A stretch of 33,050 nt of DNA, taken from assembly GCA_021780735.1 (NCBI GenBank), contig JAJXYE010000002.1, positions 1 through 33,050 of the forward strand, read 5' to 3'. This document shows positions 4,124 to 9,008 of this stretch, piece after piece (position 1 is the first letter of the stretch; each line of letters begins with the position of its first letter). This DNA comes from Pseudomonadota bacterium. GTDB taxonomy: Bacteria; Pseudomonadota; Gammaproteobacteria; Xanthomonadales; Rhodanobacteraceae. Below the pieces are notes generated by a model that made no database searches, was not told the DNA's origin, and was given only the letters and a program-made list of their open reading frames with translations. The translations under genes and the position numbers were made by a program.

Positions 4124-4192
4124 GATGAAATTCTCCGTGGGGTTTGGATGTTTGTGAGGGGCCTTAAGCAACCCGCGTGCCAAGAGTCCTTG

Positions 4193-4204
4193 GTAAACGT
4201 TTAC
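4193..4204. promoter_or_regulatory. 12-bp perfect palindrome GTAAACGTTTAC upstream of pilin
   Basis: Read directly; LacI/GalR-style central CG; about 70 bp upstream of the pilin ATG. Confidence 0.45.
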
Positions 4205-4293
4205 GCCAGCATCCAGGCCGATCGCGAAGGGCCAACAGAACAAGGCGCCGCAAGGGGTTTGCGGTGGCGATGCGGCATCCTGTAGGCGCTCCC

Positions 4294-4399: not shown

Positions 4400-4463
4400 T
4401 GTCAAGCTTGCTTGACATGATTGAGCCGCCCGCCTATCCTGCGAATGTCAAGTTCGCTTGACA
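4400..4463 (+). promoter_or_regulatory. Sigma70-like promoter with twin palindromic operators
   Basis: TGTCAAGCTTGCTTGACA (4400-4417) contains -35 TTGACA (4412-4417); 17-bp spacer; -10 TATCCT (4435-4440); second palindrome TGTCAAGTTCGCTTGACA (4446-4463) at the expected start site. Confidence 0.75.
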
Positions 4464-4610
4464 CAAGGGCGCGGGATTCCGCAATCGCATGTTCCTTTTG
4501 TGCAGCGGGTCTGGCCGCGCCGCTCCGCCGCCCCTGGCCGAGTGCAGGGTGCGCCGTCGCCATGCCGGCATCTCCCGGACGGCAGTCTGAAATCACTTCG
4601 AGGTCTTTAC

Positions 4611-5240
4611 ATGAAACGTCTTTCGAACCGGCAGTATCAATGGGGAGCCATGCTTTCCATGACCGCTTACGTCGCGCTGGTGCTGCTGGTATGGCCGTTG
4701 GCCCGTGAGGTCGACGGACTGGTGTTCAAGCTGTTGCTTGCGCTGACTCCAGTCTTGCCGATGCTCTACCTGTTCGCGCTGATGGCACGACGCATCCGCG
4801 ACAGCGATGAACTGCAGCAGCGCATGCATCTGGTCGCGTTGGGCATCGCGACGCTCATTACCGGTGCGTGGAGTCTGGTCGGCGGGTTTCTTTCGGCCGC
4901 GCATGTACTGACCCTTGATGGCTCGATCCTGATCTGGGTGTTCCCGGTGATGCTCGCCAGCTATGACGTCGCCCGCATGATCCTGGTGCGTCGTTACGGC
5001 GGTGACATGCTTGCCTGCGACGCAGACGCCAGTGTGCCGATGCATGTCCGCACCTTCGTGGCCGCCATCCTCATGGCTGCCATCGCGGTGTTCGCCCATG
5101 TGAAACATGACGACCTCGCCTGGGGCATGTTCACCGGGATGGCGCTGGTCTTCGTTGCTTTCGGCGTGCTGCTGCTGATTCGCCGCCGGCGTCGTAGCCG
5201 GGCGAGCCAGGGTCGCGATGACGCGGTGGCATCGCGATGA
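4611..5240 (+). CDS. Uncharacterised multi-spanning membrane protein
   Basis: MKRLSNRQYQWGAMLSMTAYVALVLLVWPLA; several hydrophobic helices; precedes XRE regulator; the longer ORF from 4458 overlaps the promoter/operator so is unlikely to be the real start. Confidence 0.8.
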   Translation: MKRLSNRQYQWGAMLSMTAYVALVLLVWPLAREVDGLVFKLLLALTPVLPMLYLFALMARRIRDSDELQQRMHLVALGIATLITGAWSLVGGFLSAAHVLTLDGSILIWVFPVMLASYDVARMILVRRYGGDMLACDADASVPMHVRTFVAAILMAAIAVFAHVKHDDLAWGMFTGMALVFVAFGVLLLIRRRRRSRASQGRDDAVASR

Positions 5241-5309
5241 GCCGCCAGGTCTCGAATTCAACGGGCGCACTGATGGCCATGCGCAAGGTTCACCGGTGCG
5301 GTCGCAGCC

Positions 5310-5510
5310 ATGCTTAACCACGTGCGTGAACTGCGCAGTGCGCGAACCTGGTCGCAGGCTGATCTGGCCGAACGGCTGGACGTATCGCGGCAGACCATCA
5401 ACGCGATCGAAACCGGCAAATACGATCCCAGCCTGCCGCTGGCATTCAAGATTGCGCGCTTGTTCGGGCAATCGATCGAAACCATTTTCGAACCGGGGAC
5501 TGACGTGTGA
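5310..5510 (+). CDS. Small XRE-family HTH transcriptional regulator
   Basis: MLNHVRELRSARTWSQADLAERLDVSRQTINAIETGKYDPSLPLAFKIARLFGQSIETIFEP: HTH_3 domain, 66 aa. Confidence 0.93.
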   Translation: MLNHVRELRSARTWSQADLAERLDVSRQTINAIETGKYDPSLPLAFKIARLFGQSIETIFEPGTDV

Positions 5511-7071
5511 ACATGAAAACCCGATCACGCATGGGCGTGGTGGTGGCCATCGCCGTGGCGATCTTCGAGGGCCAGCACGCCACCCATCACCGCGGCACGG
5601 GTGACGCGCCGTCGGCTATCGCGCCGGCCGCCGCCAGCGCCAGACCGGTTCCGGCCACGCGCGCTACCTGGACCCTAGGCCGGGTGACGCTGACCCGCTG
5701 CGAACTTGCGCAGCCGAACAGTGGCCTGAGCACGGCGGCGTGGTGTGCACGTTTCCCCGTACCGGAAAACCGCGACGATCCGCACAGCCGCATGATCAAG
5801 CTGAGGCTCGCCGTGTTGCGTTCACGGGCGCAGGTGGCGGACAAGGACTTGCTGGTATTTCTCGCTGGCGGCCCGGGTCAGGCCGCGACGGAGTCGGCCG
5901 CCAGCGTGGCTGCGGTACTGCAGCCGCTGCTTGCGCATCGCCATGTGCTGCTGCTCGATCAGCGCGGCACCGGTGGCTCGAATGCACTGACCTGCAAGGA
6001 CGCCGCCACGCTGGCGCCGGATGAAGACAGCCATTTCGATGCGCCAAGCATGCGCGACCAGGCCGCAGACTGCCTGCGCCAACTCGCCGGCCATGCCGAC
6101 CCACGCTACTACACCACCACCATCGCGGCGCGCGACCTGGAGGACGTGCGCAAGGCGCTCGGCTCCCCGCCGTTCGACCTGCTTGGCGTGTCCTATGGCA
6201 CCCGGATGGCGCAGCAGTACCTGATGCATTACCCGGATGCGGTACGCAGCGTGGTGCTGGACAGCGTGGTGCCGAACTCACAGGCGCTGGGTGAGGACTT
6301 TGCGCGCAACCTGGATGACACGCTGACTGCACAGTTCGCCCGTTGCAGCGCCGAACCTGCCTGCCGGCAGAAATTCGGCAATCCGGATCAGACCCTGTAT
6401 CAGCTGCGTGATGCGCTGCGCGCGAATCCCCATCAGGTGACCTTCCGCGACCCTGACAGCTACCAGAGCGTCAAGCGGGTGCTGAACGAGAACGCGTTGG
6501 CCAGCGTGGTGCGCATGTTTGCCTACACGCCGCAGACCGCCGCCCTGCTGCCGCTATCAATCGACGCGGCGGCGCATGGCGATGTCGGTCCGCTGCTGGG
6601 GCAGGCCAGGATCCTGTCCGGCAATCTGGCCGAGCTGGCCGCCAGCGGCATGCAGTATTCGGTGATCTGCAGCGAGGATGCGGACATGCTGGTGCCGCGT
6701 CCGCAGGATGCCGACACCATCCTCGGCACGCACATGATTGACGCCTTGAAGGCGGTCTGTTCGGTGTGGCCCAAGGGCACGCGCCCGGCAGATTTCCACA
6801 TGCCGCTCAGGACGGACAAGCCGGTGCTGCTGCTGGCGGGTCAGTACGACCCGGTGACGCCGCCGCGGTATGCCGACGAAGTGGCGAAGGAGCTGCCGAA
6901 TGCCCGCGTGCTGGTGCTCAACGGCCAGGCCCACAGCGTGATGGCTGCCGGATGCGCGCCACGGCTGATCCGGCACTTCGTCGAGAAACTCGATCCGAAA
7001 ACCATGGATGCCAGCTGCCTGAAGCGGCTGCGACCCACCCCGATCTTCATCGATTTCAACGGAGCCACGCC

Positions 7072-7075
<4 letters not shown>
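5507..7075 (+). CDS. Alpha/beta hydrolase, S33/TAP-like peptidase, probably exported
   Basis: N-terminal hydrophobic segment; FLAGGPGQA; nucleophile elbow GVSYG; C-terminal PVLLLAGQYDPVTPPRYA and GQAHSVM; GTG start overlapping XRE stop (or ATG at 5513). Confidence 0.85.
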
Positions 7076-7802
<727 letters not shown>

Positions 7803-7806
<4 letters not shown>

Positions 7807-9008
7807 ACACGCCGAGCGGAAAGCTTCCGCAGCGCAGTGCCTTGGTCACGGTATTCCTGAAGGAGATCAGGGAGAACCTGCGCGATCGCCGCACCCTGAT
7901 CAGCGCCTTCCTGACCGGTCCACTGCTCGGCCCGATCCTGCTGGTAATGCTGCTCAACATCGCGCTGAACCGTGAACTGGACAAGGCCGAACAGCCACTG
8001 TCGGTGCCGGTGATCGGTGCCGGCTACGCGCCGAACCTGCTTGACGCACTCAGGGCAGGGGGCGTCGTGCCGAGGCCTGCCGTGGCCGATCCGGCACAGG
8101 CCGTGCGCAAGCAGGATGCCGACGTGGTACTGCGCATTGCGCCGGACTACGGCAAGGCCTGGCGACAGGGCGAACCGGTGCAGGTGGAGCTGTTCTACGA
8201 CTCTTCGCAACGTGAAGCCGGCACGGCGGTGGAGCGCGTTGCCAGGCTGCTCGAGGGCTATTCACGGGAACAGGGTGCGATGCGCCTGGTCGCGCGCGGG
8301 TTGTCTCCAGCCACGGCGTGGCCGCTGCACGTGGCCAGGCGCGATCAGGCCACGCCGCAGGCGCGGGCAGTGCTGCTGTTCGCGATGCTGCCGTACTTCT
8401 TCGTCATCACCATCTTCATGGGTGGCATGTATCTGGCGATTGACCTGACTGCCGGCGAGCGTGAGCGGCAGTCGCTGGAGCCGCTGTTCGCCAACCCAGT
8501 GCCGCGCTGGAAGATCCTGTGCGGCAAGCTGGCGGCGATCTGTGCGTTTTCCATCATGAGCCTGCTGATCACGCTGCTGGCTTTCGCCGTGGTCGGGCGA
8601 TTCATTCCTGCTGCGAAGATCGGCATGGAGCTGGATCTTGGCCTGCATTTCGCAGCACATGTGGTGCTGCTGATGCTGCCGTTGGTGCTGCTGCTGGCCG
8701 TGCTGCAGTCGATGGTGGCGGCATTCGCCAAGAGCTATCGCGAGGCGCAGACCTATATCTCGTTGCTGATGCTGGTGCCGCTGATCCCCAGCGCCGCGCT
8801 GTCGTTCCTGCCGATCAAGGCGCAGCCCTGGATGTACGCGGTGCCTCTGCTGGGGCAGAACCTGGGCATCATGCAGCTGCTGCGCGGCGACGGAGTCAGT
8901 GGCGTACAGCTTGGCTGGTGCCTTGCCGGCAGCACCCTGGCAGCCCTGCTCGCCGTGCTGGTGACCGTTCAGTTGTACCGTTCCGAGAAGCTGGCCATTT
9001 CCAGCTGA
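7803..9008 (+). CDS. ABC-2 type permease, NatB-like
   Basis: MNTPSGKLPQRSALVTVFLKEIRENLRDRRTLISAFL; GERERQSLEPLFANPVPRWKILCGKLAA; C-terminal TM helices; ATGA overlap with ATPase gene. Confidence 0.9.

Follow-up and report, generated by a model that had tools for sequence, protein, structure and literature searches.

Paired palindromic sites over the predicted promoter of a CylR2-like XRE operon recur across bacterial phyla

Known Systems

The system closest to the one considered here is the CylR1/CylR2 pair of Enterococcus faecalis, in which a 66-aa XRE repressor, CylR2 (PDB 1utx), is accompanied by a small predicted membrane protein, CylR1, that is needed for induction (PMC3709268). CylR2 binds the promoter under its control and governs a divergent toxin operon (PMC3709268). 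More generally, the survey of XRE autoregulatory palindromes by Wang et al. 2025 reports 223 motifs and describes XRE dimers that bind upstream of their own genes (PMC12565409). Its main text sets out the same principle as is proposed here and does not contain the operator TGTCAAG-N4-CTTGACA, which may be among the 223 supplementary motifs. The autoregulated XRE operon is an already known kind of system, whereas no earlier report of this operator or of its cross-phylum conservation was found in the literature searched (motif, YozG, DUF2975, PbsX, and 9K3W).

The locus lies in a 33,050-nucleotide window, the whole stretch of DNA that was analyzed, from a draft genome of the Rhodanobacteraceae. 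Its XRE protein is 47.5% identical to CylR2, is likewise a 66-aa single-domain protein, and is co-encoded with a membrane protein. The likeness to the CylR1/CylR2 pair drawn here is one of XRE sequence and of co-encoding. Unlike in Enterococcus, the two genes come at the front of an operon of their own, which continues with a hydrolase and an ABC transporter and encodes no toxin, and the divergent gene encodes a spore-coat-U domain protein rather than belonging to a lantibiotic/cytolysin operon. Two palindromes ahead of the operon very probably form a paired operator through which the XRE protein represses its own operon.

Architecture of the Locus

The first-pass annotation described twin near-identical palindromes at this position, and both are confirmed: TGTCAAGCTTGCTTGACA (site 1) and TGTCAAGTTCGCTTGACA (site 2), 46 bp apart from center to center (Table 1). 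Each has perfect 7-bp arms around an asymmetric 4-bp core, which makes them 7+7 palindromes and not 18-bp ones. The two promoter hexamers match the consensus at 10/12 positions with a 17-bp spacer (consensus scan), and site 2 begins 6 bases past the last base of the -10. Since transcription is predicted to start ~7 nt after the -10 (~4447), the start would fall inside site 2. The palindromes therefore overlap the predicted promoter of the regulator's own operon, and the promoter geometry proposed earlier, with the -35 in site 1 and site 2 over the expected start, is strongly supported. The leader between promoter and first gene is 147 bp here and shorter in most of the named loci introduced below. 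A LacI-family-like palindrome, TGGTAAACGTTTACGCCA (~4191-4208), is also present between the divergent spore-coat-U gene and the operon promoter.

Table 1. Candidate regulatory elements, genes, and gene remnants of the operon
Feature	Position	Strand	Basis
Candidate operator site 1, TGTCAAG-CTTG-CTTGACA; right arm = -35	4400..4417		sequence and conservation in orthologous operons
-35 hexamer TTGACA	4412..4417	+	consensus scan; twin-locus comparison
-10 hexamer TATCCT, spacer 17 bp from -35	4435..4440	+	consensus scan; named loci
Candidate operator site 2, TGTCAAG-TTCG-CTTGACA, on expected start	4446..4463		sequence and conservation
Remnant, 3' end of the alpha/beta hydrolase gene found here in genus relatives	4587..4601	+	
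209-aa membrane protein, predicted all-helical; conserved core PxxP and DE(L/F)xQR; without Pfam family	4611..5240	+	
Scar of another, short membrane-protein gene, reduced to its first 8 codons and a few at the end (MAMRKVHR...RSHA*)	5273..5317	+	
66-aa XRE regulator, CylR2-like; recognition helix SRQTINAIE	5310..5510	+	
Alpha/beta hydrolase, TAP-like; adjoins XRE in relatives too	5507..7075	+	
ABC transporter ATPase	7072..7806	+	start inferred from ATGA overlap
ABC-2 type permease	7803..9008	+	

The exact motif TGTCAAG-N4-CTTGACA occurs twice in the whole 3.57 Mb draft genome, both times here, against expectations from base composition of 0.0035 exact single copies per genome and of ~2e-10 for a pair within 60 bp. 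In the motif scan of the whole draft genome, as called for by the first-pass annotation, the twin pair is the sole exact match. Allowing up to two mismatches adds two scattered single sites, fewer than the 6 obtained with a reversed-motif control, and a wider regulon in this genome is therefore rejected. As the pair is the sole target in this draft genome, the circuit appears to be one of dedicated autoregulation.

The palindromes could also be products of chance, or RNA hairpins or terminators and not operators, and site 1 on the - strand is indeed followed by TTTT and scores terminator-like. The probability of this explanation is negligible, as the arms are conserved while the spacers diverge, the paired arrangement is kept, and a pair is hardly to be expected at the frequency given above. 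The terminator reading of site 1 is itself at chance level (two such sites found vs 1.3 expected) and is rejected.

The XRE Regulator

The regulator is a single-domain HTH_3 protein of the same size as CylR2, and its alignment to CylR2 reveals the recognition helix SRQTIN of CylR2-like regulators. The pattern SRQ..NA.E is invariant in 80/80 close relatives; the regulator's own draft genome encodes no further close XRE relative. The nearest solved relatives by sequence are 9k3w and CylR2. The former, deposited as a 'PbsX family' transcriptional regulator, is the strongest PDB relative (E 5e-23) and is nearly identical over the stretch DVSRQTINALETGKYDPSLPLAFK; neither its DNA site nor its function was found in the literature searched.

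XRE paralogues of lower similarity (39-52% identity), with helices such as LTRQTIAAIE and TTRKSINAIE, are encoded at nine loci of the genus, and none of these loci has the site in the ~2.2 kb upstream. The orthologous loci compared alongside them do carry it; L157 has just one site, with one mismatch. It is strongly supported by these sequence comparisons that the sites track the XRE subfamily with a particular recognition helix and that paralogues with other helices lack them.

Conservation of the Paired Sites

The exact motif is found in 125/198 genomes of the same family and its reversed control in 0/198. A second site lies 42-47 bp away in every family locus compared, the first often reading TGTAAAG-N4-CTTGACA, and nearly all of these loci are membrane protein-XRE-hydrolase operons. 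With a relaxed motif (TGTMAAG-N4-CTTKACA), XRE gene and site co-occur in 160 of the 198 genomes and are both missing from 31, with 6 having only the XRE gene and 1 only the site (Fisher p 4.5e-29, uncorrected for ancestry); two of the six XRE-only genomes carry distant XREs. Most family genomes hold exactly two sites, which adjoin the XRE operon.

A further set of 80 named loci was selected by XRE similarity, and its sequences are related and not independent. It spans Rhodanobacter, Dyella, Frateuria, Luteibacter, Dokdonella, Lysobacter, Massilia, and Caulobacter as well as Chloroflexi, Verrucomicrobia, Acidobacteria, Deinococcales, and others. Lack of conservation upstream of orthologous operons, which the first-pass annotation had held out as contrary evidence, is not what is seen: 76/80 operons with a close XRE relative carry the site upstream, against 0/80 downstream, 0/80 for the reversed control, and 5/1600 shuffled regions. 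A motif-free enumeration of any palindrome with 6-bp arms recovers GTCAAG-N4 in 39/80 loci and TGTCAA-N6 in 38/80, the best unrelated palindrome reaching 4. Six plasmid loci from five genera and three phyla (Deinococcus, Streptomyces, Pseudomonas, Eleftheria, and Qipengyuania) have sites that depart from the motif by 0-3 mismatches, and in five of the six loci the sites are paired. In the converse search, over 274 genomes of the class, the twin pattern turned up in only 3 of the 273 others; two of these cases adjoin a membrane-protein gene and an XRE gene, and the remaining one is close to the end of a contig.

These distributions bear on whether the XRE protein is the ligand at all. The XRE gene itself is 850-910 bp downstream of the sites, a distance that would suit another cellular regulator binding there while the XRE protein works elsewhere. 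Such an arrangement is very improbable given the co-occurrence of the site with the XRE subfamily in the 198 family genomes, across phyla, and on plasmids, together with the usual count of exactly two sites per genome, beside the XRE operon. The XRE protein, put forward in the first-pass annotation as the obvious candidate, is strongly supported as the probable ligand, since the site follows its subfamily over genera and phyla and is missing beside paralogues. The same paired sites before related operons in many distant bacteria suggest an old, dedicated self-control switch. Sequence by itself thus suffices to assign a DNA code to an orphan HTH subfamily, and to do so in many genomes at once, so that regulator, site, and target can be read automatically.

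Two minor patterns accompany the sites. In loci L015-L114, the outer arms are often TGTAAAG/CTTTACA and the inner arms mostly CTTGACA/TGTCAAG. In genus g24 (L003, L005, and L006), a second twin operator (around 1501-1561 of these loci) stands before a gene for a secreted protein that, judged by eye, has Sel1-like features, and no XRE gene is nearby; it is possibly a second regulon member, in which case the regulon can grow.

Proposed Mechanism of Repression

An XRE dimer at site 1 would cover the -35, which is itself the right arm of that site, and a dimer at site 2 would cover the transcription start. The two dimers would exclude RNA polymerase directly, and a loop would not be needed. It is the geometry of the sites from which we infer the direction of regulation, that is, repression. 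Some XRE proteins are activators, and this one might activate the promoter from the same sites; that is highly unlikely, however, as a -35 inside site 1 and a start under site 2 are positions that occlude polymerase.

TTGAC is present in 84/84 twin loci compared and the final A of the -35 in 81/84. In the 85 loci whose sites are spaced 42-48 bp apart, the -35 and the -10 are mostly separated by 17 bp. Among 54 named loci, TAnnnT is found at 17 bp in 59%, at 18 bp in 22%, and at other spacers in 0-2%. The center spacing of the two sites ranges from 32 to 48 bp, with 43-47 in most loci, 39-40 in Massilia, and 32-35 in Alphaproteobacteria. Since this spacing varies and the distance to the -10 is for the most part kept at 17 bp, the placement of the two sites seems to be governed by promoter geometry.

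The same measurements speak to cooperativity. Both sites are conserved together, as would be expected if the XRE protein bound both and repressed cooperatively via a DNA loop or dimer-dimer contact. This is nevertheless improbable, as the spacing keeps no constant helical phase across loci and no oligomerisation domain was recognised in the protein, whose 66 aa amount to a bare HTH. Looping, suggested earlier as a possible feature of the autoregulation, is accordingly rejected as a requirement, and direct occlusion of polymerase by two dimers fits the variable spacing.

The promoter reading is tentative for Alphaproteobacteria, which have a different site 2 and in which no canonical -10 was found at 17 bp. 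Caulobacter and its relatives (L058, L070, L074, L077, L081, L088, L090, and L093) have 33-35 bp spacing, and their second site reads TGACAAG-N4-CTTGTCA, which suggests a lineage-specific promoter geometry.

The Membrane Partner

A membrane protein precedes the XRE gene in most loci, as a co-encoded partner comparable to that of the CylR1/CylR2 pair. A helical core containing PxxP and DE(L/F)xQR is common to these proteins (final alignment excluding row L051). No Pfam family scores above cut-off, and an NCBIfam search gave nothing reliable. The predicted structure (mean pLDDT 87.5, pTM 0.64) has no PDB match at E < 0.001.

By analogy with what is proposed for CylR1 with CylR2, the membrane protein, as the first product of the operon, would relieve repression on a signal, and the odds that it is the signal input are about even. 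The locus points to this uncharacterised membrane-protein family as a probable source of signal input, and the question raised by CylR1, of a membrane protein freeing a bare HTH repressor, becomes testable in soil bacteria. An undescribed class of regulators extending over several phyla can be suggested only tentatively. Its members would pair a CylR2-like XRE repressor, for which the -35 hexamer itself serves as operator half-site, with a small, co-encoded transmembrane sensor belonging to a new family. If real, this class would combine a fixed pair of sites on -35 and start, serving one operon only in most genomes, with a membrane protein that directly holds or releases the repressor, that is, two-protein signalling without phosphorylation. 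The autoregulatory circuit would be of an ordinary kind, set apart by unusually strong sequence evidence, by a dedicated operator doubling as the -35 and found in several phyla, and by a membrane partner that is uncharacterised.

State of the Operon Genes

Both remnant genes of Table 1 are intact in genus relatives (e.g., L151 and L161), where an extra hydrolase gene follows the operator and a short membrane-protein gene precedes the XRE gene. The fragments in the present locus reflect either lineage deletions or faulty assembly, the draft being only 87% complete. Several genus members (L151, L152, L155, and L156) also encode, ~5.5 kb further downstream in the region, a second XRE protein that is more distant and has the helix ITRQTVIALE.
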